The notes beneath the pieces are model-generated. The model was not told where the DNA came from. It worked only from the letters and a program-made list of their open reading frames with translations, and ran no database searches. From Antedon mediterranea (taxonomy: Eukaryota; Echinodermata; Crinoidea; Comatulida; Antedonidae), in the NCBI RefSeq assembly GCF_964355755.1, contig NC_092672.1, positions 32,608,501-32,672,500 on the forward strand: a DNA stretch of 64,000 nucleotides. The letters run 5' to 3'. Shown here piece by piece: positions 5,710 through 64,000 of this stretch. A program made the position numbers and the translations under genes. The number at the start of each line of letters is the position of its first letter. The stretch's first letter is position 1.

Positions 5710-8700
5710 TTAACCACATATTAAAGACAGGAGAACTTTTATTTCTTCTCTGATAACCAGCGGGTGTGGATGAATAACTTCCGGCGTCCTGTGACAGTTG
5801 GTCATGTCCCACACATCAATAACTGTAAGGTTTGGAACGTCACTCATGACCTTCCTCATCTCTACATCCAACAAGAACGCCGGCCAGTCGCCATAGTTAA
5901 CCGAACCTGCGGCTCCACTATATTCCCTCGTGTTTGCACTTTTAAAAAACACTAACGTCTTTGGACTTCGTTTATACAACCTAACAAGAGCAGCCTTTAT
6001 AGTCAGTAATCTGCTTCGATAAACATCAACACTCGTTGGCACAAAATGTGCAAACATATTTATGCAAATGATAACATTCTCGTCTGCTCCGAGTTGATCG
6101 ATTTCATTGGCTGTCCATTTGATGTCTTCTACGCGCATCCAGGTGTTACGTATTGGGAACGCGTGGTGACGATAGAACAGCTTAACTTTGTGAAGCTCAG
6201 AATGGGCAATTAACGGCCCAGCTTTTTTATTTACTCCGGTAATATCGACGCTAGTTGTTTCTGGAATATTAGCAACTAAATATTCATACCATTGTCGAAT
6301 TGTTGAATCTCCGTAGAAATAAAAACGTTTATTTTCTAAGCATTTGTTAGCAACAGCCGAAAATACATCTATATTCTGCAAGGTACACTGGTTGGAGTAC
6401 CAGCTGTCGTTAAAATAAAAACCAGCGGCTAATTCTTCGTTCCCTTTTACTGAATTCTTTACAGGTTGACATGGAATTGATGATTCCTCACATAAGCAAT
6501 TCTCATCTGTAAAAGATAAACATATAATCTATATATTAAACGTGTCTTTAACGACGGTCAATAATTAAAAACAAAACGGTGGGTCCTAAATCTGCAAAAA
6601 GAAGTCCGTTTTAAAGAATATAAGTGAGCCTAAAGAATGGAATACCAAGGCAATCTAACAACAGGAAGCTGAGCTTGCTCTGAGGCTAACAAACTTTGTG
6701 ATCCTCTTGTTTGATTGTCTTGCTCTTACTCAAACCCAGGCTCAACGGAGAATGGAATATGAAAAACATAAGATGCATGACTGTTACCAAGGAAATCTAA
6801 CAACAGGACGCTCTGAGCTCGACTAGCCAAGATAGGCTATCGTAACAAACTTTGTGGTCCTGTTGTTAGATTGCCTTTCTCTTACTCAAACGCGGTCGGT
6901 TCAAACGACTCAAGCCACGGACACAAATCTAATGGTCTTACCTGTACTGTTTACGAATATTCCTTTTACTCCTATTATTGTTTTGGGTCTGAAAAAAAAA
7001 GAATACTCATTAAATCTGGTATTAGTACGAACACATAAATATAAAAAGTGACCATTTTAGTCGCGAGTGTTTGTCATTTTGATATTTTTGAATTGTTGTT
7101 CTTCTCCATTTTTTTAGAGGATAATTTTTGATTATGGAAAGAATAATCTTTAATAATGTCTACATTATCAACCTGTATGTGACAACAAATGTGATGTGCC
7201 CATAGATATGATGATGTCATATCACTATCATATTTAGGAATATCACTACCGTATTTGGGCACATCACACTTTTTTTGTCAAACTAGATTGATAGTGTAGA
7301 CAGAGCTTTAGTCTTAACAATTTATGTGTTGTCATCATTCGTTCCTTTAGTGCACAACTGTGCAATATAATATAGATAACTTACTTGAAGAATAATTGCT
7401 CTTCAACTGTAAACTGTGATGACGTATCGATTCTAGCTCTTTCTAAGTTCCCTTGATGGTACATCAGCGCAGAGCACGGCAAATCTCCAGGCTTCTCACA
7501 AAACCATGGTTCACCAGTTCTCAAATCAGTAAAGTTGCAGATTTCATTGGCAGACGACAATTCGATGTGGCACCTCATTGTGTGGATGATATCTCCCAAT
7601 TGGAACTTTCCATCGTATGCCATCCGAACCGGATACATCTGTTGAACTCTTTTCATAGCCGCGATTGCCTCACTGCTGTGGATCAGTCTTACGTCGATGT
7701 ACATTGGCCCACTCCATCTTAAAGTGAAGTACGCACTGTACGTGCCATTATTATGGTCCACTATCTCACCATCAGTAGACTGACTGGCCAACGAAGCAAC
7801 ACTATACACTTTGCCGCGAAAGTAATCACCCCCGATAGTCTTCTTATTATTGAAGTGATCACGCGCTTCAATCGTGACGTGTATTTTGTCACAGATGTTG
7901 TAAGAGGCCTTTTCGTTTTCGATATAAAATGACGAACGACCAGCGTCCGTGAATATGGCCCGGGGAGGCTCAGTGTATCTGGGTATATACATGTCATTTT
8001 CTGGGAACAAGCCTTGAGTTGGCCTGTACGGAAGCGCGACAAAATTGTGTGAATTATCAAACGGTATTACATGTTCCGTGAGGATTTTCAAAGATAACGT
8101 TCTCTGTAAAAAAAAAAGATTTCGAAATTTATACAATGTTTGACAATGCCAAATCTATCAATTTAAAACTATAAACAATTTAGATTTTAGGCACTTCTTC
8201 AATATTGCAGCACCACATAGGCCTACAACTAGGACTATACCGTCACATAAATGGGAGATGATTTCTGTTTTTGCACTGGGAGTGGAAATAGCCAGACCAA
8301 CTTCTTATCGTCCTATTCGAAGGACGTATACAGAACGTCGTAGTATAGGCGAAGTGCGATTGGTAGCAGAGTAGCTCCTAAGGAGGATTTGGAGTTGTTT
8401 CAAGGCTTTAGATAGACTGTGTCCAAATGACACTTTCACCCTACCGTATATTATCATTATCCGTATATATATAATCATATGGTCATCTCAACCCGTGTGA
8501 AAAGAATATTAAAATGTTTTGAAAACGACTTACAAACATATTATCCACCGGTGAAAGTCTGAGTAAAGAACACATGAGTGACGTCAGAATCACAGAAGTA
8601 AACAGCAGACATACAAACACATTTCTACGTCTAAAATGTGTACAACAACTATGTTGAGGAAGAACCATTATTTTAGGCCTAGCAAGAGAGCAATTTGTAG

Positions 8701-12141: not shown

Positions 12142-15100
12142 TTAAATTTTGTTGAAATAGTCAATTGCTTCTAGTTCTTTCTTGATTTTTTCCTTGTCTT
12201 CGTCACTCGGTTCAACCAACGGATGGCGGGGAGGTCCAAGGTCAAGTCCGGTGATGTTTGCTATAGTTTTGTTAACAGCAACATTTCCGCCTACAAAAAA
12301 AGAGATGAAATTGTCATACAAATCATACACTAAGCCCTGTCTACACTATCAAACTTTATATGACAAAAAAATGTGATGTGCCCATATATGGAAATGATGA
12401 TTATTATTATTATTATTTATTGCCAAAAACCAGATACAAACAAACAAAAACACAGAAACTAAGGGAGTAGGCAGGAACCTAATCACTATAACAAGAGTTC
12501 AGGTTCCGTACTCCCAAAGTAACAACAATCAATGATATATAATAAACTATATAAAAATATTTAAATAACAAATAGACGAATCAACAGTGTCAATATAAAA
12601 TAAACGGATAAAATACATTATAGTCGATTCAACAAAGTCAATATAAAACATGTGATTTAAGTGAATTTAAAAATGTTGGAAAACTGTCTAAAATTAAAGA
12701 ATTTTTAATCATTTCCGGTAATTCTTCCCACAACCTAGGGAATATGTTAATAGCGGAATGATGAAGACAATTGGTTCGAGCATAGTGATGAATGAACTTA
12801 AGTGTATCAAGGTGACGGCCATTAACAACTATAGATTGACGAACACTACTACAATCAACCGTTCCAATAAGTGATTTACAAAAAAAGGATAACAGAAGAT
12901 AATTTCTTCGATTAGATAGTGTAGGCCAATTTAGCTTAGTGAAACGTTCCTCGTATTCCATTTCACCTCTTGTTTGTTTAAGGACAAGCCTAGTAGCCCT
13001 TTGCTGGACTGCCTCGATACGTTCCGTAAGTTTTTTGGTTCGAGGCAACCACGCTGGGACACCATATTCAAGGATGGGGACAATGAGAGCTTTATAGAGT
13101 GAGAAAATAGCTGAAGGGGATGATCCTCCTGCAATACTAGTAATAAAACCCAACATTCGATTTGAACTAGAAATAATTAAGTTTACATGGTCATCCCAAG
13201 TAAGTTCACTATTAATCGTGACCCCCAGATGACAATGACTAGATACGGATTTAATAGGCAAGTCATTTATACGATAAACAGGTCTATACTCTTTCCTTGA
13301 TCTTGTAATGTGGAGAACCTTGGTTTTATTTAAGTTAAGCTCCATTTCATTTAGATCACACCAAGAGGAAAGCCTGATCAGATCGCACTGAAGAACAACT
13401 TCATCGTCTACAGTAAATATATTTCTATAAATTATCGTGTCATCGGCAAACAATGCACATGGAGAAATAATAGATGAGGGAAGGTCATTTATAAATAAGT
13501 TAAAAACAAGGGGTCCAAGTACGCTGCCCTGTGGTATGCCAGAGGTAATTGGGGATGATGGGCTAATGGATCCTTGATACAAGACTCTTTGGGAACGTCC
13601 CAATAGAAATGACTTGATCCATTTCCAGACATTGCCTCTGATATTGAAGTGACTAGCCAGCTTATTTAAAATAATGGTGAGGCAGTTTATCAAACGCTTT
13701 GGCGTAGTCGAGAAAGATAACATCAATTCTGGGGGCTTTAGTTTTATCTAGCGAAGATGCCCAGGAATGAGTTTTAGGTTGGTAAGTTGGGTAACACAGG
13801 AACGGGAGGGAAAAAAACCGTGCTGGACTTCAGTAATTGGACAACTATAAGCAACGTGATCAGATATACTTGAAAACAGTATTTTTTCAAGCAGTTTCGA
13901 ACATATAGGGGTAAGGGATATTGGTCTGTAATTACAAATTGCATTTTTGTCACCAGATTTAAATATAGGAGTGATATGGGACATTTTCCACTTAGCGGGG
14001 ATTTCCCCCATACGCAGGGACAAGTTAAACAAATTAAATAATGGTGGAGCAATAAATTCGGAAGCAGATTTCAATATGTATGGATGCACGGAATCAGGAC
14101 CTGGAGATTTATTAGACGAAAGTCCATTAATCACCTTCTCAACATTGTACACGTTAAAGTTAAGTTGAGAAAGTTCAGGGATTGGGACATTACAAACCGG
14201 AGGTTCACAGCTGGGAATTATGGGTGGGTTAAAAACAGAAACAAAAAAATCATTAAATGAACTAGCAATTACAGGGTGTGACAAAACATTCACACCGTTA
14301 ATATTAAAAGATAACGGTGCTGGTGATCTTCTACGTTCTCTAACAAAACGCCAGAAAGCTTTACGAGTAGTCACTTGTATTGTAAATAATTTGTTGACAT
14401 ATGAATAATACGACTTATTGCATAGACGCTTAACCTTATTACGAATAGACTTATAGTCATCCCATGCTGATACAGAACCAATACGTTTGGCTTTTCTGAA
14501 CAGTCTATGCTTTACGTACCAACAATTTAGAATACGGTTTGGTAAGTAATACGTTAAAGGAAACTGCATGGTGATCACTGATCACTGGGTTATCAATGAC
14601 ATCAAGTGAAATTAAACGGTCTGGCCTGTTTGAAAAAACAAGATCAATTATTGTACCAGATGATGGGACCAAATGATTAGGCCTAGTGATTTCCTCAACA
14701 AGCTGAGTACAATTTAAAGCATTCATAGTGTCAAGAAAAATGGTAGGTATCGTATGTTTAAGATTCCAATTTAAATTAAAATCCCCAACAATATAAATAT
14801 CATCATACTTTGGTAAGTGAGGTAATAAAGGCAGAAGAAAATTGTTACTAAAGTCATTCCAGAAGGAGACTGGAGAGTTCGGTGGGCAGTAACAAACAGT
14901 GAAAAGCATCTTATAATTGTCAATCGAAATAGAAAAACATATAACTTCATGAGGACCAGAGTCCAGCAAATGACAATGAATTGGATTCAGTTCGTTCTTT
15001 ATTGCTGCAAATACACCGCCTCCTTTCTTGTTGGGTCTGTCCTTTCTGATCACCATATAATCTTGAGGAATGCCCAGTGAAGATTTGAAATTTGCGCTTG

Positions 15101-40739: not shown

Positions 40740-42850
40740 AGATGGATCATTTGTTGGTAGTTGTATGTTTATGGTCTTTTGTTGGCAATGTGGTGGTCTT
40801 TCAGAAATTTGTTGGTAAGATGGTGGACTTGGTTGCCAATTTGGTGGTCTTTTGTTGGCAATTTGGTGGTCTTTCTTGCCAATTTGGTGGTCTTTGGTCA
40901 TTTGTTGGCAATCTGGTGGTCTTTGTTGCCAATTTGGTGGTCTTTCGGTCAATAATTGTTACCAATTTTGTGGTCTTTCGCTCATTTGTTGCTAATATGG
41001 TGGTCTTTCGGTCTTTTGTTGGCAATGCGGTGGTATTTGTTGCCAATTTGGTGGTCTTTCGGTCATTTGTTGGTATGATGGTGGACTTTGTTGCCAATTT
41101 GGTGGTCTTTTGGTCATTTGTTGCCAATTTGGTTGTCTTTCGGTCATTTGTTGGCAATGCTGTGGTCTTTGTTGCCAATTTGGTGGTCTTTCGGTCATTT
41201 GTAACCAATTTGGTGGTCTTTTGGTCATTCGTTGCCAATATGGTGGTCTTTCGATCTTGTGTTGGCAATGCGGTGGTCTTTCGGTTAGTTGTTGGTATGA
41301 TGGTGGACTTGGTTGTCAATTTGCTGGTCTTTTGGTCATTTTTTGCCAATTTGGTGGTCTTTTGGTCATTTGTTGGCAATGCTGTGGTATTTGTTGCCAA
41401 TTTGGTGGTCTTTCGGTCATTTGTAACCAATTTGATGGTCTTTCGGTCATTCGTTGCCAATATGGTGGTCTTTCGGTCTTGTGTTGGCAATGCGGTGGTC
41501 TTTCGGTTAGTTGTTGGTATGATGGTGGACTTTGTTGTCAATTTGCTGGTCTTTTGGTCATTTTTTTCCAATTTGGTGTTCTTTTGGTCATTTGTTGGCA
41601 ATGCGATGGTCTTTGTTGCCAATTTAGTAGTTTTTTTGTCATTTGTTGCCAATTTAGTGCTCTTTCGGTCATTTGTTGGCAATGCGGTGGTGTTTCGGTC
41701 ATTTGGTGGTCTTTCGGTCATTTGTTGGCAATGATGTGGTGGTCTTTCAGTAATTTGTTGCCAATGTCGTGGTCTTTCGGTCATTTGTTGGCAATGTGGT
41801 AGTCTTTGTTGCCAATTTGTTGGGTTTTCGGTCATTCGTTGGCAATGCGGTGGTCTTTGTTGCCAATTTTGTGGTTTTTGTTGCCAATTTGTTGGGTTTT
41901 CGGTCATTTGTTGGAAAAGCGGTGGTCTTTGTTGCCAATTTGTTGGGTTTTCAGTCATTTGTTGGCAATGCGGTTGTCTTTGTTGCCAATTTTGTGGTTT
42001 TTGTTGCCAATTTGTTGGGTTTTCGGTCATTTGTTGGCAATGCGGTAGTCTTTGTTGCCAATTTGTTGGTTTTTCGGTCATTTGTTGGCAATGCGGTGGT
42101 CTTTGTTGCCAATGTTGTGGTTTTTGTTGCCAATTTGTTGGGTTTTCGGTCATTTGTTGGCAATGCGGTAGTCTTTGTTGCCAATTTGTTGGTTTTTCGG
42201 TCATTTGTTGGCAATGGGGTTGTCTTTGTTGCAAATTTTGTGGTTTTTGTTGCCAATTTGTTAGGTTTTCGGTCATTTGTTGGCAATGCGGTAGTCTTTG
42301 TTGCCAATTTGTTGGTTTTTCGGTCATTTGTTGGAAATGCGGTGGTTTTTGTTGCCAATTTGTTGGGTTTTCGGTCATTTGTTGGCAATGCGGTTGTCTT
42401 TGTTGCCAATTTTGTGGTTTTTGTTGCCAATTTGTTGGGTTTTCGGTCATTTGTTGGCAATGCGGTGGTCTTTGTTGCCAATTTGGTGGTCTTTCGGTCA
42501 TTTGTTGCCAATTTGGTGGTCTTTGTTGCCAATTTGGTGGTCTTTCGGAAATTTGTTGCCAATTTGATGGTCTTTCGGTCATTTGTTGGTAATGCGGTGG
42601 TCTTTTGGTCATTTGTTGGCAATGCGGTGGGTTTTCGGTCATTTGCTGGCAATGTGGTGGTATTTTGGTCATTTTCTGGCAATGCGGTGGTATTTGTTGC
42701 AAATTTGGTGGTCTTTCGGTCATTTGTTGCCAATTTGGTGGTCTTTCTGTCATTTGGTGGTATGATGGTGGTCTTTGTTGCAAATATGGTGATCTTTCGG
42801 TTATTTGGTAGGTAAGTGGTTGGCCAACGGAAGTATATTGTTGCCTAATG
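40740..42850. repeat. Complex minisatellite (30-, 51- and 72-bp units) forming the 3' part of a minus-strand ORF
   Basis: Built from 'ttgttggcaatgcggtggtc' and 'ttgttgccaatttgttgg' blocks joined by 'ttttcggtcat'. Between 42024 and 42321 the 'cggtcatttgttggcaa' motif is spaced 51, 72, 51, 72 and 51 bp, a higher-order 123-bp unit. All these spacings are multiples of three. At 40740-41750 the units are mostly ~30 bp. Most frames on both strands are open through the array. Confidence 0.95.
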
Positions 42851-43815
42851 ATGTTGGAATTTCTCCAGTCACTACATGAATTGTAAATTGAACCAGACGA
42901 CGTGCCTTGTGAATATTGTACAGGTATCTGAGCACTCTTTCGCCATAACATACATTTTACTCGTAGATTACGCTGTGACCTGAAGTCAAACAATTGGGAC
43001 AACTCTTTTATAGATTGTTCTGCCATGGGTAGCTGATACTGATTCTCTTCACCTCGATCAATAGTAGCAACCTCAAAAAAGTTGGCCTGTCGAGCAACAG
43101 AACTAAAAAACTCTGTGTTTCCACCTTTTGAATTTCCCAAATAGAATAGATAGGCACCGGGTTTAGCATGGTTTAGTAGGTCTCTGAGTGTCTCTTGTGA
43201 ACGAGGTAGTGCCTTTATAGCCGATATAAACTTACTACATGTTATAAGATCAGCCTTCGATATTGCTTGTCGGTGGTCATGTAGTATGGACTGACTGACT
43301 TCAAAATGAAGATAGTTAGCTGATAGGTTTCTTTGTTGTTGATTTAAACTTGATTGTAAACAATAAAAAGCAATTTTCCAATCTAGATGTCTATCTAGAA
43401 CTGTTGCAGTAATATGCATATCTTCGTGACCTTTACTGTTGAGAAACATCCTGACACCAAACAAGTCTGTACCGGGTCCTCCACCCAAAGCGCAGACATT
43501 CAGACAGCCACGAAGTGAAACATTTTCAAATAGTGCGTATAAATTACCGTTTTGATAGAATTGTTGTAGACTGTCGAAGATACCATAGCATAATACGGGA
43601 AAATAGAGAAACACGTAACAGGCTTGGTACGCAGGGTCGTCAAAATTTACATCTCCAAGACCATATTTGAGAGAAGGTCCTTCATAGCAATTCAAAAGTT
43701 CCTTAATACGGTGTGCCAGTTCATGTTTTCTGTTTGTATACATTAATATACCGTGTATTCCATGTCTTGTCAGTAGCATAATCGGTTGTCCAAGAACCCA
43801 ACTATGGCAATCCAT
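40801..43815 (-). CDS. Rossmann-fold methyltransferase-like protein with repeat-encoded Q/N/P/T-rich tail
   Basis: One uninterrupted minus-strand frame of 1004 codons. The N-terminal ~300 residues form a globular domain with a SAM-binding-type glycine loop 'CLNVCALGGGPGTDLFGV' and a following 'TATVLDRHLDWKIAF', where the acidic residue of motif II would be. Further conserved blocks are 'YGLGDVNFDDPAYQACYVF' and 'NSKGGNTEFFSSVARQANF'. The remaining ~690 residues are encoded by the minisatellite: 'HCQQMTENPTNWQQ'-type repeats, changing near 41750 to another frame's 'NDRKTTKLATK' repeats, so the array is not phase-locked throughout. The true stop may therefore be earlier or alternatively spliced. 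The paralogue at 46594-47487 ends right after the globular domain. It is intronless, and no specific substrate can be named. Confidence 0.72.
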   Translation of the reverse strand: MDCHSWVLGQPIMLLTRHGIHGILMYTNRKHELAHRIKELLNCYEGPSLKYGLGDVNFDDPAYQACYVFLYFPVLCYGIFDSLQQFYQNGNLYALFENVSLRGCLNVCALGGGPGTDLFGVRMFLNSKGHEDMHITATVLDRHLDWKIAFYCLQSSLNQQQRNLSANYLHFEVSQSILHDHRQAISKADLITCSKFISAIKALPRSQETLRDLLNHAKPGAYLFYLGNSKGGNTEFFSSVARQANFFEVATIDRGEENQYQLPMAEQSIKELSQLFDFRSQRNLRVKCMLWRKSAQIPVQYSQGTSSGSIYNSCSDWRNSNIIRQQYTSVGQPLTYQITERSPYLQQRPPSYHQMTERPPNWQQMTERPPNLQQIPPHCQKMTKIPPHCQQMTENPPHCQQMTKRPPHYQQMTERPSNWQQISERPPNWQQRPPNWQQMTERPPNWQQRPPHCQQMTENPTNWQQKPQNWQQRQPHCQQMTENPTNWQQKPPHFQQMTEKPTNWQQRLPHCQQMTENLTNWQQKPQNLQQRQPHCQQMTEKPTNWQQRLPHCQQMTENPTNWQQKPQHWQQRPPHCQQMTEKPTNWQQRLPHCQQMTENPTNWQQKPQNWQQRQPHCQQMTENPTNWQQRPPLFQQMTENPTNWQQKPQNWQQRPPHCQRMTENPTNWQQRLPHCQQMTERPRHWQQITERPPHHCQQMTERPPNDRNTTALPTNDRKSTKLATNDKKTTKLATKTIALPTNDQKNTKLEKNDQKTSKLTTKSTIIPTTNRKTTALPTQDRKTTILATNDRKTIKLVTNDRKTTKLATNTTALPTNDQKTTKLAKNDQKTSKLTTKSTIIPTTNRKTTALPTQDRKTTILATNDQKTTKLVTNDRKTTKLATKTTALPTNDRKTTKLATNDQKTTKLATKSTIIPTNDRKTTKLATNTTALPTKDRKTTILATNERKTTKLVTIIDRKTTKLATKTTRLPTNDQRPPNWQERPPNCQQKTTKLATKSTILPTNF

Positions 43816-44296
43816 TCTTCTTTTTTGTACTTTAAAATGTAAATTTCTACTTAAAAATGTTATTTCCTTGTCTATTTTTTAACTCAGTGTATGCCTACCT
43901 TTGTAAGTAAACGACAAGTCAATATCACTTTCAGATTTCAAAACTGGATTTTCCAAATGTCAGTCACTTCCTGTGCGCCATGTGATTCACTTTTAATTGC
44001 CATCAGACTTGATACATCCGCACACAGACAAAGCAGTTAAAAACAATAAAAATATTCTAGACTTACATAATAATAATAATAATAATAATAATATTTATTA
44101 AACAGTTTATAATTATTATCTTCACTTATCAATTGGTGATTATAATAATGTTGTTGATTCAACCAAGTGTAATGTCTAGTATTAAATAAACAAAATGTAT
44201 AATATCTAGACTAGATAATTGATTTGAACCCTCTTGACACACAATAACGTTGGTCATTTTATGCTATACCCTTACCTACATCAATCTTTCTTGTAT

Positions 44297-46593: not shown

Positions 46594-47487
46594 CTAAATC
46601 TTTCGCCATAACATACATTTTACTCGCAGGTTACACTGGGTATTAAAGTTAAACAAGTTAGATAATGCATACGCATGCCATGGTTGTTCATTTTGCGGTA
46701 ACTTATATGGATTTTTCTCACCTCTATTGATGTTAGAAACCTCAATAAAATTTGCTTTTCGAGCAACAGAACTAAAAAACTCTGTGTTGCCACCATTTGA
46801 ATTTTCCAAATAGAATATATATGCACCAGGTTTAGCGTGTTTTAGTAGCTGTACGAGTGTTTGTTCCGAGTTTTTTAGTGCTTTTATAGCCGAAATAAAT
46901 TTGTTACATGTTATTATATCTGCATTCGCGATCGCTTCCAGATGGCCATATAGGATTGAATTCCCTGCTTCAAAATGAACATATTTAGCTGATAAATTTC
47001 TTGTTTGTTTATTCATATTTAAGCGTAAACATTCAAAAGCAATTTTCCAAAGAGGATGTCGATCAAGAACTGTTGCAGTAATCCGAATATCTTCATAACC
47101 TCTACTGTTGAGAAACATCCTGACACCAAACAAGTCTGTACCAGGTCCTCCACCCAAAGCGCAGACATTAAGACAGCCACGAAGTGAAACTCTTGCGAAT
47201 AGAGTGTTTAAATGCATTTCGTTGTAAAATTGCTGTATACTGTTAAAGATACCATAGCATAAGGCGGGAAAATAGAGAAACACATAACAGGCTTGGTACG
47301 CAGGATCGTCAAAATTAACATCACCAAGACCATATTGTAAAAATAATCCTTTATACGAGAAAAAAAGTTCCATAATACAATAAGGCAGTTTATCTTTCTT
47401 GTCCGTAAGCAACAATAAAATGTCCACACTATTCTTCATGAGAAGCAGAACGGGTTTACCCAGAGGCCAAATCTGATAATTATTCAT
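46594..47487 (-). CDS. Rossmann-fold methyltransferase-like protein, paralogue without repeat tail (297 aa)
   Basis: A single-exon minus-strand ORF starting with Met at 47487. It aligns end to end with the first ~300 residues of the protein at 43815: shared 'YGLGDVNFDDPAYQACYVF', glycine loop 'CLNVCALGGGPGTDLFGV', 'RITATVLDRHPLWKIAF', 'ITCNKFISAIKAL', 'NGGNTEFFSSVARKANF' and the end 'LRVKCMLWRK'. It stops two residues past that point, which defines the domain edge. The GGGPGTD loop and following acidic residue suggest SAM binding, but the rest of the fold was not checked and catalysis is inferred. Same strand as its paralogue, about 2.8 kb apart: a tandem duplication. Neither copy has introns. 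Confidence 0.82.
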   Translation of the reverse strand: MNNYQIWPLGKPVLLLMKNSVDILLLLTDKKDKLPYCIMELFFSYKGLFLQYGLGDVNFDDPAYQACYVFLYFPALCYGIFNSIQQFYNEMHLNTLFARVSLRGCLNVCALGGGPGTDLFGVRMFLNSRGYEDIRITATVLDRHPLWKIAFECLRLNMNKQTRNLSAKYVHFEAGNSILYGHLEAIANADIITCNKFISAIKALKNSEQTLVQLLKHAKPGAYIFYLENSNGGNTEFFSSVARKANFIEVSNINRGEKNPYKLPQNEQPWHAYALSNLFNFNTQCNLRVKCMLWRKI

Positions 47488-47828
47488 TCTTACAATTGTG
47501 TTTTCTTGTGTGTTGTCTAATAACTTAATTGTTATGATGGAGAAAATAACTGAATAGAAGTATATATAATTTGTAATGTTGGAAATTCCATTTCTAATTT
47601 ATTAGTTAATTATTAAATATAGTATAATTATTTTTAAACTTGCGGAATTTCCAATACTTAGTCCTCTTATCTGTGTTGTGTGTATCTAATTTGTCATGGC
47701 AACAAGTCATCTGATGCATGCAAATTAACAATTTTAGCATTCACAAAATCAGAATAAACATCGCCCGATTCTGAAATGAACACGACATTTAACCGTAGCA
47801 TTGTGTAGATTAGTTTTCTTTTTATGCT
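47488..47828. other. 5' flank of the shorter methyltransferase-like gene
   Basis: AT-rich; it should contain the promoter of the minus-strand gene starting at 47487. No clear TATA box or other site can be assigned with confidence. Confidence 0.35.
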
Positions 47829-50579: not shown

Positions 50580-52663
50580 ATGGATGACAAAAAAAGAACT
50601 CGACGTCGTGGTGGTCGTGGTAAAAAAAATAAACACAAATGTTTAACAAGCAAATCGCATGTGACAGAGAAAGCTTTGAAAATTGTCTGTCAAAATGGTG
50701 GTAGAATTTCCTTACAAGATCTTGAGGAGAAAATTGGAAAGGTTTCACCCGATCTAGGAAGTTTGGAAAACATCATATCAGACCTCGATCATGAGAATTA
50801 CCATTTTAAGTTCATAGACTATGAAGATGGTAATGTTGATATCGAAGTGTACACTCAAGTCAAGATCTGTCAAACATATCAAAAGAATGAATGCACCGAT
50901 GACTGCACTGATTTACACCTGTGTGGTTACTTTGCAACAGGTACACATTCTTTAAATTGTATTAAAAAAAACAATGTGGAAAACAAATTATATGATTTGT
51001 TTTAATCTGAAAAACAAAACAAACAAAGTACAGTACAGTGCAAACATTATTACAGTTTGAGTAGGTTTTCTATTTTAAAAGACACTAGCCTAGGCCTGAA
51101 GGCTAATTCGATCATTTATGATTTTAGCAGTAGTTAGTTAAACCTAGCCTGTACAGTGCAATGATATGAAAGGTCTTCCATTCTCTGCTACAGCTGGTTC
51201 GGATGGAGCATACAGTACATACTGAATATTTGCCATCACAATTTTTTATCTACCGACCTCTCAATTTAAAATTCGAAAACAACTTTTGTTAAGCCTAATA
51301 ATATTTTAATATATTTTATTTTCTAAAATAGCTGTTGCTGAACGGCCCAACTCACAAATCATTACAAATACAAATCCGGTACATGCAGATAACACCACCC
51401 TCAATTCAAACCCAGCAAACCAGAAACATATTTATTGTGTATTGAATTATTTTATATTGTGTATTATACAATAGGCCATAAATGAGACAATCTGTCACCG
51501 TTGAAATAAGTGTCACATTTTTCTTAAACCGCGAATGATTGAACATAATAAAATTATGATAACTTTTTCATTATTTTAAAATTCAAGGTTCTTTCTGCCC
51601 ATGGTTTGAAAGTCAAGGCTGTAAAAAAATGCATCAGTATTTATCAGAACACAACAAAAAAGTGCTAAAGAACTTTAAAATTGCCTTTTTGTCTCAAGAA
51701 CATGCATGTACGTTATTTCGATGGGCCTGGCCACAGTTTACAGTTCCCGATTTCTGCATTCAATACCAAACAAATACAGGTTGTAACAAGCAATGTTGCA
51801 GATTTCTACATCTTTGCAAGTAAGAATATATACTGAGTTTGTCAATAGTTGGTAGAAATTAGTCCTTCCCGCAATTTTCTAGAACGACTGAACAATTGTT
51901 GTTATATACAGTTGTTCTAAACTGGGTGACAGTTCTTGTGTTGGTGTACATCGTCACTCAATTTAATTCTTCCTTGAACATCTGATATTATGCAGCATTC
52001 ACTTTTAACATTGTTAAAGGAAATTACAAAAGTACAGAAATTTATTAATTACTTTTTAAAATAATTAAATTGCTGTAAATCATATGCATTTTTGTCTTAA
52101 CGTCTCTATTTTTTTTCTTCTTTATCTTCGTTTCAGAAATTATGTAATGGAAACTTGCAAATATGGAACTCAATGCAAGTTTGCTCATGATATTAATGAT
52201 GAAGAATCAAACATTCAGTTACTGAACCAGTTTAAAATTACACTTTGCCGTTCTGATGATATATTCCTCCTGATTAGAGAACGCCGTCAAGGATTTTATC
52301 GTCCTGATGTTGAAGTGTTTCAGGAAAGCAGTGATACAGAAGGAAGTGAATACAGTCAGGAAGAAGGCAGTGACACAGAAGAAAGAGAATACAGTCAGGA
52401 AGAAGGCAGTGATGCAGAAGAAAGAGAAAACAGTCAGGAAGAAGGCAGTGATGCAGAAGAAAGAGAAAACAGTCAAGAAGAAGGCAGTGATACAGAAGAT
52501 AGAGAATATAGTCAGGAAGAAGGCAGTGATAGTGAGGAAAGAGAATACATTCAGAAAAAAGGCAGTGATAATGAGGAAAGTGATAGGCAAAATGAAGACA
52601 CTTATCATGGGAAAGGTTTTAGTTCTACTAACAAATCATATCAGGGAGCAAGCCAATCCAAAA
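50580..52663 (+). CDS. PARP12-like: PARP-like gene, ZAP module 1 (exons 1-3)
   Basis: Exon 1 has a basic start ('KKRTRRRGGRGKKNKHKC'), a winged-helix-like segment and finger 1 ('ICQTYQKNECTDDCTDLHLC'). Exon 2 has finger 2 ('CGYFATGSFCPWFESQGC' across the junction, then KKMH) and finger 3 ('FCIQYQTNTGCNKQCC' then RFLH). Exon 3 has finger 4 ('ETCKYGTQCKFAHD') and an acidic linker of ~13-residue repeats ('SDTEEREYSQEEG'). The exon 3 donor 'AAAA|gtatgt' is used so that the split codon fits exon 4. Without it the frame ends at 52692, which would give a short ZAP-like isoform without the PARP domain. Confidence 0.8.
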
Positions 52664-55600
52664 GTATGTTATGCTATCATTTTACCAAATAAAACAAATT
52701 TGAGAAAAACACCACATTAATTATGTAATTCAATAAGAAAGTACCAAATAATGCAAACAAATATACAAATGCTATACAAATTTATATTATATTACAGTAT
52801 TTAATTTAGTAATTTAGTAATTTTGAATTACTCTATTAGTAATGAAAGATTCCAATGCCAGAAAGAGATACCCACCACGTTTTCGTCACAATCATAGTCG
52901 AAGAAAAAAACAAGAATGTTTAACAAGTAAATATATAGTGATTGAGAAAACACTGCAAGTGGTCTGTCAAAATGGTGGTAGAATTTCTGTTGAAGACCTT
53001 AAAGAGGAAGTTGGAAAGATTTCACCTGATCTAGGAAGTTTGGAAAACATCATATCACACATGGATCATGAGTATTACTATTTCAAGTTTGAGTACAAAG
53101 ATGGTAATGTTGAAGTGTACACCGATCTCAATATCTGTCAGTCATACCAAAATAATGAATGCACTTACGATTGTCCAGATTTACACCTGCGTGGTTACTA
53201 TGCTACAGGTACAGTTGCCAGAGCAAAAATATATACTTCACATTTTGGTATATTACATATGTATAATATATATATATATATATAATACTATGTATAATTA
53301 TTAAGAATAAGTTTTACAAGATATGAGTACTCACCATTAATTTCATTGACATTACTGTATACCTAATTAGTAACAGTATATGCTAGTTAAAATTCTATTT
53401 AATACAGCATTTGGCAAAGATGTTATAACTTTGTTATTAAATGTGTCTTTTTATTATAAGGTTCTTGTTGCTGGTTTGGTCAAAACTGTAAAAAAAGTCA
53501 TGAATATCAATCAGAACACAAAGTTTTAAAAAACTTTGGCATTGCTTTTCTAAGACATGAGGAGTTGAAAACTCTACTTCGATGGAAGTGTCCACAGTTT
53601 ACAGTTCCCGATTTCTGCATTCAATACCAAACAAATACAGGTTGTAACAAGCAATGTTGCAGATTTCTACATCTTTGCAAGTAAGAATATATACTGAGTT
53701 TGTCAATAGTTGGTAGAAATTAGTCCTTCCCGCAATTTTCTAGAACGACTGAAAAATTGTTGTTATATACAGTTGTTCTAAACTGGGTGACAGTGCTTGT
53801 GTTGGTTCACATCGTCGTTTAATACTTCCTAGAACATCTACTGACATTATTAATTACCTACTGCTGTTATCAAAATCCTATGCAATTTTTGTCTTAATGT
53901 CTCTATTGTTTTCTTCTTCATCTTCGTTTCAGAAATTATGTAATGAAAACTTGCAAATATGGAACTCAATGCAAGTTTGCTCATGATATTAATGATGAAG
54001 AATCAAACACTCAGTTACTGAACCAGTTTAAAATTACACTTTGCCGTTCTGATGATATATTCCGCCTGATTAGAGAACGCCGTCAAGGATTTTATCGTCC
54101 TGATGTTGAAGTGTTTCAGGAAAGCAGTGATACAGTAGGAAGTGATTATAGTCAGGAAGAAGGCAGTGATACAGGCGAATATAGTCAGAAAGAAGGCAGT
54201 GATACAGACGCAAGAGAATACAGTCAGGAAGAAGTCAGTGATACAGAAGAAAGAGAATACAGTCAGGAAGAAGTCAGTGATACAGAAGAAAGAGAATATT
54301 GTCAGGAAGAAGGCAGTGATAGAGAAGATAGAGAAAACAGTCAGGAAGAAGGCAGTGATACAGACGCAAGAGAATACAGCCAGAGAGAACGCAGTGATAA
54401 TGAGGAAAGTGATAGGCAAAAGGAAGACACTTATTATGGGAAAGATTTTAGTTCTATTAACAAATCATATCATGGAGCAAGCCAATCCAAAAGTATGTTA
54501 TGCTATCATTTTACCAAATAAAGCAAATTTGAGAAAAACACCACATTAATTATGTAATTCAATAAGAAAGTACCAAATAATGCAAACAAATATACACATA
54601 CTATATACATTTATATTATATTACAGTATTTAATTTAGTAATTTTGAATTACTCTATTAGTAATGAAAGATTCCAGAGCCAGAAAGATATACCATTACCG
54701 ACCGCGTCGTCACAATCATAATCGAAGAAAAAAACAAGAATGTTTAACAAGTAAATCTGTAGTGGTTGAGAAAACACTGCAAGTAGTCTGTCAAAATGGT
54801 GGTAGAATTTCAGGGCAAGACCTTAAAGAGAAGGTTGGAAAGATTTCACCAGATCTAGGAAGTTTGAAAAGCATCATATCAGACATCATGGATCATGAGT
54901 ATTACTATTTCAAGTTTGAGTACAAAGATGGTAATGTTGAAGTGTACACCGATGTCAATATCTGTCAGTCATACCAAAATAATGAATGTACCTACGATTG
55001 TCCAGATTTACACCTGTGTGGTTACTATGCTACAGGTACAGTTGCCAGAACAAATATATATATATATTTCACATTTTGGTATTATATTACATACATAATA
55101 ACCTTTTAAAATACTATATAGAACTATTAAGAATAATTTTTAGAAGATATGAGTAGTCAACATTAATTTAATTGACACCTAATTAGTAACAGTATATGTA
55201 GTTGAAATGTTAGTTAATACAGCATTTGGCAAAGATGTCATACTTTGTTGTTAAATGTGTCTTTTTATTATAAGGTTCTTGTTGCTGGTTTGGTCGTCAA
55301 AACTGTATGAAAAGCCATGAATATCAATCAGAACACAAAGTTTTAACAAACTTTGGCATTGCCTTTCTGAGAAATAAGCAGTTGAAAACTCTACTTCGAT
55401 GGAAGTGTCCACAATTTACAGTTCCTGATTTCTGTAGACCATACCGTGGTACCAGTGGTTGTTGCAAGATATCCTGTAGATTTTTGCATATATGCAGGTA
55501 AGTGGCTGATAAAGAAATTAAATAAGTTTTTGTACTATCTCATTGTTCTTCACAGAATTAATTTTAATTATTTAATTGTACGTACGCGTCGTGACGTTTG

Positions 55601-58600
55601 CTCCTAATCACTTCCCATCATACATTGTGCAATGACGTTCCTTATTGCCAGTATTGAACGATACTTTGTTATTTGTTATTATTGAGAGAATATGAAATGA
55701 TGACATTTCTATTTTACTACATTGGTTAAATTATATTTGCATTTCAGAAATTACGTTATGAAAACTTGTAAATTTGGAACACGATGTAAATTTGCCCATG
55801 ACATTTATCAAATAGAGTCTAATGTGGAAATACTGAAGAGGTTTAAAATTAGTCTTGAATATCAATCGGATGATGTCATCCGCTTGATCAAAGAGCGCCA
55901 TGCTGGTTTCTATCGCCCTGATGTTGAGGTCTTGGAGGGTGATGGAGAAGATAGCCATTGTAGTCAGGAAGATGTTATCAAAGAAAGAAAAGAAATCAGG
56001 CAACTCCAAGCATTACCTAGGCAAGTTCAGAAACTACCTCAGCAAGTCCCGAAATTGTCTAAGCAAGTCCAGATATTACCTAAACAAGTTCAGGCAATGC
56101 CCAGTAGCAAAGAAGAAAGAGGTACTAGCAAACCAGCAAAGGATGCACTTCAAGGGAAAATGAGAGATCTTTGCAAAGATTACCTGAAAGGAAACTGCAT
56201 TAATGGCAGTATGTGTCAAAAAAAGCATTGCAATCTTCCTTACCAGTGGCAGTTGTATGTTTATGGTAAAGGGTGGATTGATGTTGGTGATAAACCAAAT
56301 CTTAAATTAGAAGGCGGATTTTGTAGGAATGTCAATGATTCTGCTCGGTTTCCATTGAATTCTACTTGGTAAGTTTTGACCACTTTCTTTTGCTGAGATT
56401 ATAGTTGGAATTTGATTATTTTCACTTTGGCAAAATTCACTTAAAAAAACCATGTTTAGTGAAGTCGGTTTACAGTGCCATCATGGTTAGTCAATTACAT
56501 GTTGTACATCAACAAAAACAATAGTTTTTCCCATGCGTTACTTTTTTGCTAGGTTCATAGGTTAAATTTATTTTATTAATCTTACTCTCTCATTACTTTT
56601 TTTTAAAGGAATGTGTGCTTTGAAGACATGGTTGCATTTGAAGGGTTGAATGTTTTTTCACTTGAGCGTATTGAGGTCAAAGGTGATGAAGATATATCTG
56701 ATGCTTATTTGATATCTCCTTGGTCATGGTATTATAAAGATGAACACGGAAATTGGATTGAATATGGTGAAAAGGTAAGTAACAGGAAAATGTGTCGACA
56801 AACTTGAATCTTTGAGGAGATCACCAAGCTATTCTTGTTTTTAAATGTTGGCGTAAAATTGTGAATGTTCATTTTTCACCAGAACACAAAGCAGACATAA
56901 ACAGTTCAGATATTGAAAGTTTGTTTAAAGGTTATAAACATGGAAGATCCACCATTAAATTTAAAGCAGGTAATAAACACTATACTTTGAACTTCTCTAC
57001 TATGAGCCAAACCAACGATGTATCTGGTACCAGAAGACCTGTTCGTCGAAGGCCAGTGGAACAGATAAAGCCAGAAGATGTTAGGAAGTACAGAGAAGAT
57101 AAACCTTGGTAAAATATTCTTTCATGTCTTTTTCTGCCTGGTGATTAATATTTATTGGTGTATTCATAAAAAAACGTTTGGCCTACGGGATACAATGTAA
57201 CGCTAATAGTCTAAAAATAAAACTGGCACAGATGACCAGAAAGTGTTCCAATTCAGGCCACTGCGATCAAAATACAAATTTGCATCGTATGATACTGAAT
57301 TTCACAGTGTGATTCCTTCCCAGCTTGAAACTTAAAAACACACAGACTATAAAATCAATTGGTTAGATGTTTACTTTACGTTTAATCTCAGCCATGCCTT
57401 AACACTCTATTGTCATGTTTATTTTATTTTCTGTTAGGCCAAACTGTCTTACTACATTTTAAAAACGCTAAATTCAACCAATCAGTATTATTGTGCATTA
57501 ATTTGTATATGTATATAACGTAAGACGGGTATTTTAATCATAAACAAACAAAAAGTAAATAAAAGAAAACAAAATGTATTGTTCAATATAATTAAAAGTA
57601 CGACCTAGCCAATTATATAGCATTTTTAAAATCTAACAATCAATAGTTGATTATAGTATTAGTAGTACTCCAGACTTTTCTTCTTATCTTGTTTAAATCA
57701 ATTTCTTTCTCCCAATCGGTAATGTACTCGCTTTTAAAACAGCATATCTAATCTATTTGCAGGCTACACAGTTATACTTTCCCACGGACTTGGGATATGA
57801 CAGCAAAACCAGACCGTCTTGTAATAGTAAGGAAAGAAACAAATCGTAAAGAATACAAAGAAATACACAAATTCTTTAAAAGTACACTCCCAGATGGAAA
57901 AATAAGAAAAGTTGAACGAGTTCAAAATGAGATTTGCTGGGAAACATTTGTACGGTAAATACATTATTATTTGAATTTTGCTAGAAATTTACTAATTTAG
58001 CAGATTTTTTTTGTTTACTATTATTAATTATTAACACATTTTAGTGTATTCTTTGTCATTTGATTGGTTAATTCGTATCACATGATCTTCATTATTAGTT
58101 CTATTTAACAGAAATGTGATATTGGTGATGGTGATATTCAACGATACTATTGAATGTACAGCTTTTTAAATGTTAGAATATTGTGTAATGCAAATGGTGT
58201 AACTATTGGTGATCCTGCTGAAACCATCACTCAAGATCATAAATTCTTCCTTGCTATGTATGCTACTACTTCATAAATGTTATAAAATGCTTTTTTTTTT
58301 CTTATAAGGCAAAAGGAAACGATGATGAAGAAAAATTCTTGTAGAAAAGTTAAAGAACTCCAACTGTTTCATGGAACAACGCAAGATAAAGTTGATGATA
58401 TCTGTCGCGATAATTTTGACTTCCGCTTGAGGGGTATTGCTAAACACCGCAAACCCCGCAAACCTCCAAAAAAACATAGCAAACCCCATCGAACCAACAT
58501 AAAAGTGATTGAATCATGTAGTGTACAACCTACTGGGTATATCCATGTAAAAAAAAAATTAAATTTCTACTGTTAACAACTTATTTTTGGGGTAAAACAT

Positions 58601-60894
58601 CATTTTTTGGTCAAAAATGATTGCTAAACCCCGCAAACCTCCAAAAAAATATAGCAAACCCCACCGAACCAACATAAAAGTGATTGAATCATGTAGTGTA
58701 CAACCTACTGGGTATATCCATGTAAAAAAAATATTAAATTTCTACTGTTAACTATTTATTTTTGGGGTAAAACATCATTTTTTGGTCAAAAATGATTGCT
58801 AATTTTTAACCAAAAAATGATGTTTTATCCGCAAAAAAGTAGTTAACAGTAGAAATTTAATATTTATATACCCAGTGGGTCGTACACTACATTATTCAAT
58901 CACTTTAATGTTGGTTCGGTGGGGTTTGCTATGGTTTTTTGGAGGTTTGCGGGGTTTAACAATCATTTTTGACCAAAAAATGATGTTTTACCCCAAAAAT
59001 AAGTTGTTAACAGTAGAAATTTAATATTTTTTTTACATTGATATACCCAGTGGGTTGTACACTACATGATTCAATCACTTTTATGTTGGTTCGGTGGGGT
59101 TTGCTATGTTTTTTTGGAGGTTTGCGGGGGTTTGCGGGGTTTGCGGTGTTTAGCAATACCCCGCTTGAGCGGTACACGAGTTGGTCATGTTTATGGCAAA
59201 GGAGCTTATTTCGCAAGGTCAGCAAAGTATTCCAATAAGTTCGCTAAACAAGATAGTGCTGGTAAAAAGAGAATGTTTGTTGCAAGAGTTCTGGTTGGTA
59301 GCTACACAGTTGGTACAAAGGATACGTGCCGTCCCCCATATAAAGACCCCACAAATAAGGAAAAGGGGTCGTATAACTCTTGTGTTGATAATATAACTAA
59401 TCCAAGTATTTTTGTAGTGTTTGATAACAATCAGGTTTATCCAGAATATCTGATCACATATACAGTTTCATCGGATTGTGAAACTTTTAATATGGCATCA
59501 TACATGCAATTGTATTGTGGTAGCAGCCAAAATGTAGCAAGCATACCGATCAGTCGACCATCAAGTCTTGTTCCAACTGCTAGTCATCCATTGTCCAGTA
59601 ACACAAATTCAGCAAGCAAGGTCAGTTCACCTACCACTCGATTTTCAAGACTTGCTTCAGGCGATAATTCATCTTTCAGTAGTCCAAGTTCAACCAGCCT
59701 ACATACTATTCGGTCTTCACAAACTCCTTCAAGTACAAACCAAACCAACAGTAGCCAAAGTTCTATTGCAAATATCCCACATACTAGTCGGTTGTCAAGA
59801 AGGGCTTTAAGTACAATCAACCATCTAACAGTAGCAAAAGTTCTATTTGGAATATCCCAAGTTCTGTTGGGAATATCCCAAGTTCTATTGCAAATATCCC
59901 GCCTACTAGTCGGTTGTCAAGAAGTGCTTCAAGTACAAATCAACCATCTAACAGTAGCAAAAGTTCTATTTGGCATATCCCAAGTTCTGTTGGGAATATC
60001 CCAAGTTCTGTTGGGAATATCCCAAGTTCTATTGCAAATATCCCACCTACTAATCGGTTGTCAAGAAGTGCTTCAGGTACAAACCAACCATCTAACAGTA
60101 GCAAAAGTTCTATTAGGAATATCCCAAATTCTGTTGGGAATATCTCAAGTTTTATTGCAGATTTTCCGCCTACTAGTCGGTTGTCAAGAAGTGCTTCAGG
60201 TACAAACCAACCATCTAACACTAACAGTATCCCAAGTTATATTGGGAATATTCCAAGTTCTGTTGGGAATATCCCAAGTTCTATTGCAAATACCCCACCA
60301 ACTAGTCGGTTGTCAAGAAGTGCTTCAAGTACAAATCAACCATCTAACAGTAGCAAAAGTTCTATTTGTAATATCCCAAGTTCTGTTGGGAATATCCCAA
60401 GTTCTATTGCAAATATCCCGCCTACTAGTCGGTTGTCAAGAAGTGTTTCAAGTACAAATCAACCATCTAACACTAACAGTATCCCAAGTTATATTGGGAA
60501 TATCCCAACTTCTGTTGGGAATATCCCAAGTTCTGTTGGGAATATCCCCAGTTCTATTGCAAATATCCCACCTACTAATCGGTTCTCAAGAAGTGCTTCA
60601 AGTACAAACCAACCATCTAACAGTAGCAAAAGTTCTATTTGTAATATCCCAAGTTCTGTTGGGAATATCCCAAGTTCTATTGCAAATACCCCACCAACTA
60701 GTCGGTTGTCAAGAAGTGCTTCAAGTACAAATCAATCATCTAACAGTAGCCAAAGTTTTATTGGGAATATCCCAAGTTCTATTGCAAATATCCCACCTAC
60801 TAGTCAGTTGTCAAGAAGTGCTTCAAGTACAAATCAACCATCTAACACACAAGACAGCAAACCAAATAACAACACAAGATGTATCTGTATGTAA
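50580..60894 (+). CDS. PARP12-like: ZAP/PARP12-like protein: three CCCH modules, two WWE domains, PARP catalytic domain, repeat tail
   Basis: Exons, all gt/ag with matching phase: 50580-50940, 51588-51819, 52137-52663, 52840-53208, 53461-53680, 53933-54492, 54661-55035, 55275-55497, 55748-56368, 56609-56778, 56883-57108, 57763-57954 and 58309 onward, the last interrupted by a MITE at 58432-59161 and resuming at 59170. They encode three modules of winged helix ('VCQNGGRIS') plus four CCCH fingers, a fifth finger ('LCKDYLKGNCINGSMC'), two WWE domains ('LPYQWQLYVYGKGWIDV'; 'WSWYYKDEHGNWIEYG') and an ADP-ribosyltransferase domain ('LQLFHGTT', 'YGKGAYFAR', 'SCVDNITNPSIFVVFD', 'VYPEYLITY'). This order matches vertebrate ZC3HAV1/PARP12, which bind RNA, but those have one module only. 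His and Tyr of the triad are present. With the MITE absent or spliced out, the protein would exceed 1,900 residues. The last exon's end is uncertain. Confidence 0.85.
52840..54492 (+). CDS. PARP12-like: PARP-like gene, ZAP module 2 (exons 4-6)
   Basis: Repeats the exon plan of module 1, with introns at the same codons and in the same phases. Exon 4 enters at 'ctctattag|TA' in frame with exon 3. Exon 5 has finger 2 ('CCWFGQNCKKSH') and then 'FCIQYQTNTGCNKQCC', identical in sequence to module 1 exon 2 at its 3' half, including the following ~140 bp of intron. Exon 6 repeats finger 4 and an acidic linker ('SDTEEREYSQEEV'). An internal Met (52842) at the exon start may allow separate initiation. 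Confidence 0.8.
54661..56368 (+). CDS. PARP12-like: PARP-like gene, ZAP module 3 and fifth CCCH/WWE start (exons 7-9)
   Basis: Exon 7: winged helix and finger 1 ('ICQSYQNNECTYDCPDLHLC'). Exon 8: fingers 2 and 3 ('FCRPYRGTSGCCKISC', RFLH), the most diverged version. Exon 9: finger 4 ('KTCKFGTRCKFAHD') and a different linker with 'LPxQVQ' heptad-like repeats instead of the acidic repeats. It then has a fifth CCCH ('LCKDYLKGNCINGSMCQKKH') leading directly into WWE 1, as in ZC3HAV1. Module 3 is the one continuous with the conserved C-terminal half and so is probably the ancestral copy. Confidence 0.82.
57110..57762. other. PARP-like gene intron, nothing recognised
   Basis: AT-rich intron between the exon ending WWE 2 and the first PARP catalytic exon; no repeats or ORFs of note. 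Confidence 0.4.
58432..59161. mobile_element. PARP12-like: Foldback/hAT-like MITE, family D, copy 2, in the PARP catalytic exon
   Basis: Terminal inverted repeats 'gggtattgctaaacaccgca' and its complement bound a 730-bp block made of alternating inverted 'gcaaacctccaaaaaa...actgggtatatccatgtaaaa' units. Exactly 8 bp, 'cgcttgag', are duplicated at 58424-58431 and 59162-59169, the TSD length of hAT elements. Removing the element and one TSD rejoins '...NFDFRL' to 'SGTRVGHVYGKGAYF' in frame, so it is a clean insertion into coding sequence. No transposase is encoded. A relative is at 32220-32756. Confidence 0.93.
59690..60885 (+). repeat. PARP12-like: Tandem repeats encoding 'SVGNIPSSIANIPPTSRLSRSASSTNQPSN' type units
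   Basis: A ~120-150-bp higher-order repeat with a 24-bp subunit ('agttctgttgggaatatccca') follows the PARP catalytic domain. The domain frame changes near 59805-59815, where 'aagtacaatcaacc' lacks one A found in the other copies ('aagtacaaatcaacc'). As written, the domain continues into a hydrophobic frame ('SQVLLGISQVLLQISRLL') open to 60910. With the A present it continues into the Ser/Asn-rich frame that ends 'RCICM' at 60894. Confidence 0.88.

Positions 60895-62280: not shown

Positions 62281-64000
<1,720 letters not shown>

Follow-up and report, generated by a model that had tools for sequence, protein, structure and literature searches.

Probable multiplication of the N-terminal RNA-binding exon triplet in PARP12-like genes of the crinoid Antedon mediterranea

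ZAP and PARP12 are known, in the portions of the literature available to us, with one N-terminal RNA-binding module, and one module per protein is usual among the members described in the available part of PMC8102003, which offers no strict definition. Is this number fixed? The question is raised by a 64-kb stretch of the Antedon mediterranea genome (the window; C3:32608501-32672500, genome 354 Mb), in which positions 50580-56368 hold three exon triplets in series, each coding one ZAP/PARP12-type module (hereafter M1, M2 and M3). Our results indicate that these modules and the PARP side that follows them are probably one PARP12-like gene with a multiplied N-terminal RNA-binding triplet. We compared the window with three downstream PARP12-type loci (P1-P3), placed in extended coordinates (window numbering continued past 64,000; 70 kb fetched), whose modules fall into two types, A and B. 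If spliced together, the modules of P1-P3 (two) and of the window (three) depart from the one-module rule.

The first-pass annotation of this locus had described three consecutive triplets with identical intron positions and phases, each encoding a winged-helix segment and four CCCH fingers. The exon structure held up: the positions and phases of intron 1 and intron 2 agree among M1, M2 and M3, all nine module exons are free of stops, and the 12 modelled exons (the nine module exons plus exons 4-6) show GT at 12/12 donors and AG at 11/11 acceptors. Exon 1 of M1 was modelled from its ATG, and an AG is also present 2 bases upstream. M1 encodes a winged-helix segment, four CCCH fingers and acidic 13-residue repeats; the count of four complete fingers fails for M2, which has an Arg at the first ligand of finger 2. 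The domain comparison with ZC3HAV1/PARP12 that the annotation had proposed was run and bears out the identity of the modules, with the Pfam family zf-CCCH_PARP12 (PF25261) above cut-off in 3/3 (Table 1) and a seven-row module profile retrieving the ZAP RNA-binding domain from the PDB (6l1w, 2.1e-19; 6uei, 2.4e-19; 3u9g, 9.3e-18). A single-sequence PDB search with M3 returned generic CCCH fingers only, the ZAP matches having needed the seven-row profile. The Pfam family WH_PARP12 was below cut-off in M1 and M3, was not listed for M2, and was above cut-off in P1 (E 3.6e-7). AlphaFold models of exon 1 from the three window modules had a mean predicted local distance difference test score of 34 and were not used.

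Splicing across the two gaps between modules (joins 52663^52840 and 54492^54661) gives ATA ATG AAA (Ile-Met-Lys) with the frame kept, and Ser-Lys-Ile-Met-Lys is read across both joins; the split codon A|TA indeed fits the next acceptor, as had been annotated. Left unspliced, linking intron 1 brings the frame to a stop at 52690-52692, with an AATAAA at 52688. The evidence for joining the modules comes mainly from P1 (93.4-101.4 kb), P2 (107.7-114.7) and P3 (121.8-128.6), each of which contains modules A and B followed by one WWE-PARP part (tblastn). B exon 1 of these loci starts TTCTAATTAG|CT and aligns with the window acceptor CTCTATTAG|TA; in 3/3 it has no in-frame ATG and an in-frame stop lies three codons upstream. 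A exon 3 ends in a phase-1 donor, GCAG|GTATGT in P1 and GCAG|GTAAGT in P2 and P3, and the join G|CT is an in-frame Ala. Under a small splice matrix trained on the module introns of the cluster itself (7 distinct donors, 13 acceptors), these donors score in the top 0.4-0.7% of the GTs in 80 kb. Splicing would then lead into the second module of P1-P3, the first module being its simplest source. It is because these second modules lack an in-frame ATG, have a stop just upstream and are preceded by a matching phase-1 donor that we favor one gene for the window as well, and the two-module loci (3/3) thereby lend support to the annotated choice of one gene rather than three.

Several observations pull in the other direction. 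The linking donors of the window are only among the best 11.5%, and its linking acceptors among the best 59%, of all sites under the same matrix, while the linking acceptors of P1-P3 reach the best 20%; an ATG directly follows the acceptor in M2 and M3, and both window gaps contain an AATAAA. The P1 gap (94859-95585) holds 16 ATGs, which leaves room for a separate first exon there, and among P1-P3 only P1 is open throughout. We think that the matrix, being small and built from other introns of the same cluster, is probably harsh on the window sites, and the low scores still count. An alternative reading is that of three short-range genes, with M1 and M2 as module-only proteins (stops 52690-52692 and 54519-54521) and M3 opening a PARP12-like gene, or short and fused forms produced by alternative polyadenylation. 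This would agree with the ATG beside each acceptor, the weak linking sites, the AATAAA that overlaps each stop (52688, 54517), a further AATAAA in the P2 gap (109354), and the existence of a human module-only gene, ZC3HAV1L (available part of PMC8102003). We nevertheless regard it as quite unlikely: just 149 and 141 bp separate each stop from the next ATG, the P1 gap is free of AATAAA, and the homologous B module of P1-P3 cannot start a gene in its first exon, which lacks an in-frame ATG and is closely preceded by a stop. An operon with spliced-leader trans-splicing was also considered for the window, where the gaps are short and the acceptors adjoin an ATG; it is conceivable there, but the lack of an in-frame ATG in the first exon of module B in P1-P3 speaks against it.

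If the modules belong to one gene, how did the third arise? DNA trees (exon 1, exon 2 split at the breakpoint described below, and exon 3, the last without P3B) place M1, P1A, P2A and P3A in an A clade and M3, P1B, P2B and P3B in a B clade. In exon 1 and the first part of exon 2, M2 groups with M3; in exon 3 its partner is M1 (100/100). In the second part of exon 2 it falls with M1 and the A clade at modest support (87/84), the unsplit exon 2 puts it with B, and the exon-3 protein tree leaves M3, P1A and P2A unresolved. Over the 685 sites where M2 matches only one of its neighbors, the fit to a single break in exon 2 (Table 1) was matched by 0/10,000 shuffles. Synonymous divergence (dS) is 0.85 between P1A and P1B, as against 0.55 for M1-P1A and 0.57 for M3-P1B, and because the first value exceeds the other two, the A/B duplication seems to predate the split between the window gene and P1. 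The annotation had taken module 3 as ancestral and modules 1 and 2 as later copies; this finds no support, with M1 in the old A clade, M3 in the old B clade and only M2 recent.

The sharpness of a single breakpoint might also be expected if M2 were an assembly artefact joining M1 and M3 reads. This appears highly improbable, as M2 copies neither neighbor: between its left part and M3 there are 12 synonymous and 23 nonsynonymous changes in 165 codons (dS 0.137), and its exon 3 is 560 nt long against 527 nt in M1, with a different repeat sequence. Two further findings sit uneasily with the simplest history. The right part of M2 has a dS of 0 relative to M1 (0 of 56.8 sites), so that the two halves are unequal in age; a single exchange without later conversion is insufficient, and either later conversion or two events are needed. 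In addition, by tblastn exon 1 of M1 resembles P1B (84%) more than P1A (69%), though the DNA tree puts M1 with A, a mismatch that points to further conversion. We propose a history in which an ancestral PARP12-like gene would already have carried two modules, A and B, and M2 would be a B/A hybrid from unequal exchange or gene conversion between neighboring modules. Each triplet opens with an acceptor that lies two bases ahead of a codon and closes with a phase-1 donor, and since the cassette is flanked by phase-1 introns on both sides, extra copies would stay in frame.

To find relatives of the window gene, we searched the genome with a finger-4 fragment, which found nine places, all within 73 kb on C3, and with a catalytic fragment, which found 13. 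P1, the only fully open locus of P1-P3, has a single open reading of 1,379 codons in 10 exons (the first of 8 open site combinations) and Pfam matches above cut-off for PARP, zf-CCCH_PARP12 (four stretches), WWE (E 3.7e-17) and WH_PARP12. In P2 and P3 alike, exon 1 of module A is shifted by 1 nt in an A-run (107639-108021 and 121724-122106), either as a real change or as a common sequencing problem; P3 is further damaged by a frame change in exon 3 of B and a TAA in the PARP piece. Of two further loci, P4 keeps exon 6 and PARP, and P5 keeps finger 5, WWE and PARP (L011 and L012; 128600-133600); a search of the 5.0 and 6.3 kb upstream of them gave no module, and the same search did recover the modules of two control stretches. 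Each member of a diverged pair on C1 has a single module; by eye, the intron positions are the same. Genes with one, two and three modules, and genes with none in the stretch searched, thus appear to coexist in this one genome. A genome search with PF25261 gave two weak places below cut-off and missed the window modules, and is uninformative on module numbers. The ratio of nonsynonymous to synonymous divergence was 0.21-0.44 in 15/15 pairs of six modules (P2A, P3A and P3B not included).

Compared with known proteins, P1 resembles PARP12 in its winged helix, CCCH fingers, finger 5, WWE and PARP12-type catalytic domain: the best PDB match of its C-terminal half is human PARP12 (5.9e-49), and ZAP (4x52) reaches only 1.1e-24. 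PARP12 differs in having one N-terminal module, where two or three are found here. The ZAP side of the resemblance (ZC3HAV1, PARP13) lies in the module, as seen by profile, and in the finger 5-WWE part, which in P1 matches the ZAP central domain (PDB 7kzh, 2.5e-24; 7sz2, 9.5e-21); ZAP is unlike in module number, in the P1 catalytic domain being nearer PARP12, and in residues K89 and Y108, which are not kept. P1 and P2 both end in CICM, a CaaX-like C-terminus recognized by its letters (ends at 101727 and 115059). This recalls ZAP-L, whose C-terminal CaaX box is required for activity, and sets P1 and P2 apart from human PARP12, which has neither the ZAP CpG residues nor a CaaX box (all in the available portion of PMC8568172).

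The catalytic side of the window copy is damaged. That a PARP domain follows the modules, as annotated, holds for the ancestry and not clearly for the product, the domain being interrupted by a 730-bp element inside its exon. The finger 5 and WWE exons of the window have homology to those of P1. After donor 56775, exon 5 is out of frame and meets a TAA at 56898-56900; after donor 56779 it is in frame. Since the usual donor leaves exon 5 out of frame, canonical splicing is predicted to give a product of 1,223 residues without PARP. Such a product would be comparable to a long relative of ZAP-S, the form without PARP: like ZC3HAV1L and ZAP-S it would have RNA-binding modules without an active PARP, and unlike them it keeps three modules, finger 5 and WWE1, its PARP having been lost by transposon and frame change. 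The PARP exon of P1-P3 is uninterrupted at the transposon site, and in the window, reading on into the element leads to a stop. The window copy thus probably has no active PARP in the assembled haplotype.

A 130-bp piece of the element had at least 84 matches, drawn from the 40 scored of 560 candidate places in the genome, and copies among the matches listed are on C1-C11 only; of ten other copies, five have both ends and a perfect 8-9 bp duplication and five have no detectable end pair. In the window copy a GT stands two bases in from one end and an AG eight bases short of the other; splicing between the two would leave 2 + 8 + 8 (target duplication) = 18 nt, which keeps the frame wherever the duplication is 8 bp. 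The element could behave like an introner.

Is the window locus, then, a decaying pseudogene, in which the third module and the transposon mark relaxed selection and from which no working protein comes? The transposon in the PARP exon, the loss of the WWE2 frame at the usual donor, the out-of-frame CICM and the lost ligand of M2 would all suit such a reading, which is compatible with a fused ancestor. We consider it doubtful, given that the module exons are open with GT and AG ends in 9/9 cases, that the WWE2 frame would be regained through the tandem donor 4 bases downstream, and that GT-to-AG splicing within the transposon ends would restore the frame.

What the modules of this probable single gene could recognize was assessed from their zinc ligands and CpG contact sites. 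ZAP residue numbers are placed on the chain through the C88 and H86 anchors and otherwise follow the numbering that we take to be standard. At the position of C88, the TGT codon of M3 is CGT in M2; the GSCCWF stretch of M3 is also present in M2, and its second Cys might be a partial stand-in for the lost ligand. In ZAP, the substitution C88R strongly lowers RNA binding (available portion of PMC9253567). The CpG contacts of ZAP are K89, Y98, K107 and Y108 (PMC8102003, same portion as above). In the order M1, M2, M3, P1A, P1B, the K89 site is Gly in 5/5, the K107 site is K, K, M, R, R, and the Y108 site is K, K, K, Q, K, the alignment at the Y98 site being uncertain in all five. Because K89 and Y108 are kept in none of the five modules, ZAP-like CpG reading by the window and P1 modules is unlikely. 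For the window gene, the earlier idea of a multivalent reader preceding a PARP domain loses strength on three counts, namely the finger-2 ligand of M2, the CpG contacts and the broken PARP half, and the notion of avidity would fit better with the open two-module P1.

The surroundings of the cluster are summarized with the window features in Table 1. Between the PARP12-like genes lie long open frames of one minus-strand family with the motif GGGPGTDLFGVRMFLNS, judged methyltransferase-like by eye; a Pfam scan of two of them gave no match at E 0.01, and one gave no match in the PDB. A DED-like frame (PF01335, E 2.3e-4, below cut-off) lies upstream of P2 (L005:1270-1839), with near-copies before P3 and P4 (118858-119427 and 130867-131439). 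The minus strand of the window also carries two RRM stretches (62284-62874), a reverse transcriptase (RVT_1, E 1.4e-15; 12641-13747) and an NXPE4-like gene (E 8.3e-67; 5713-6528). Rfam listed nothing within the window.

Table 1 Coordinates of the features at the three-module locus and of the interleaved minus-strand frames (extended coordinates beyond 64,000).
Feature	Position	Strand	Remarks
Module 1 (A type)	50580-50940, 51588-51819, 52137-52663	+	Open; PF25261 E 4.1e-15; A clade
Linking intron 1	52664-52839	+	176 nt, phase 1, gtatgt...ttag; donor and acceptor align with P1-P3
Module 2 (hybrid)	52840-53208, 53461-53680, 53933-54492	+	5' part M3-like, 3' part M1-like; PF25261 E 6.8e-12
CGT (Arg) for TGT (Cys), first zinc ligand of M2 finger 2	53190-53192	+	ZAP C88 position; from alignments
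Recombination breakpoint in M2 exon 2	53591-53597	+	634/685 informative sites fit one break
Linking intron 2	54493-54660	+	168 nt, phase 1, near-copy of linking intron 1; AATAAA at 54517
Module 3 (B type), finger 5 and first part of WWE1	54661-55035, 55275-55497, 55748-56368	+	PF25261 E 8e-14 (Pfam); B clade
Exon 4, end of WWE1 and start of WWE2	56609-56774	+	Tandem donors, GT at 56775 and 56779
Exon 5, WWE2	56883-57108	+	226 nt vs 245 in P1 (19 nt shorter)
Exon 6, between WWE2 and PARP	57763-57954	+	Homologous to P1 exon 100369-100566
PARP exon, 5' part with HGT motif	58309-58431	+	Uninterrupted at the insertion site in P1-P3
Palindromic transposon, 730 bp	58432-59161		8-bp target duplication CGCTTGAG (58424-58431 / 59162-59169)
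PARP exon, 3' part	59162-59500	+	Pfam PARP E 5.6e-15 on 59042-59500
Repetitive C-terminal tail	59501-60894	+	1-nt shift near 59815; CICM end out of frame with PARP
Motif-GGGPGTDLFGVRMFLNS frames	40807-43878, 46597-47598, 62832-64000 on to 68801, 72072-73817, 84823-86784, 89667-90905	-	

With regard to the literature, invertebrate genomes typically have one ZAP/PARP12-related gene, with five fingers per protein (PMC8102003, in part), and PARP12-like genes have expanded by duplication, multiplication of modules within a gene not being mentioned in the available portion of PMC4245714. A literature search by titles and abstract starts, with subscription journals mostly outside its reach, found no description of several such modules in one protein.

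How might such proteins work? In the window, M1, M2 and M3 would be spliced into one mRNA, and the modules, held on acidic linkers of ~113 and ~124 residues, would bind several single-stranded stretches of one RNA at once. Judged from the gene models, polyvalent binding of single-stranded RNA through flexible acidic linkers would be the most likely mechanism. P1, which has a long linker besides its two modules, is the better guide here: once on RNA, its protein would deliver to it a PARP12-type ADP-ribosyltransferase together with the WWE part and a membrane anchor of CaaX-like type (CICM). It is conceivable, and we put this forward only tentatively, that the lineage tunes its RNA sensors by recombining a frame-neutral exon cassette, with genes of zero to three modules coexisting, exchange between neighbors making hybrids, and some members combining polyvalence with a prenylated, membrane-bound ADP-ribosyltransferase.

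A cluster whose module number varies up to three, its frames open and its junctions in phase, would provide a natural experiment on whether RNA-binding valence or specificity matters. Within it, M2 would be a natural counterpart of the ZAP C88R binding mutant, standing beside modules with complete fingers, and P1, with its two modules, full PARP and CaaX-like end, is directly expressible and testable.

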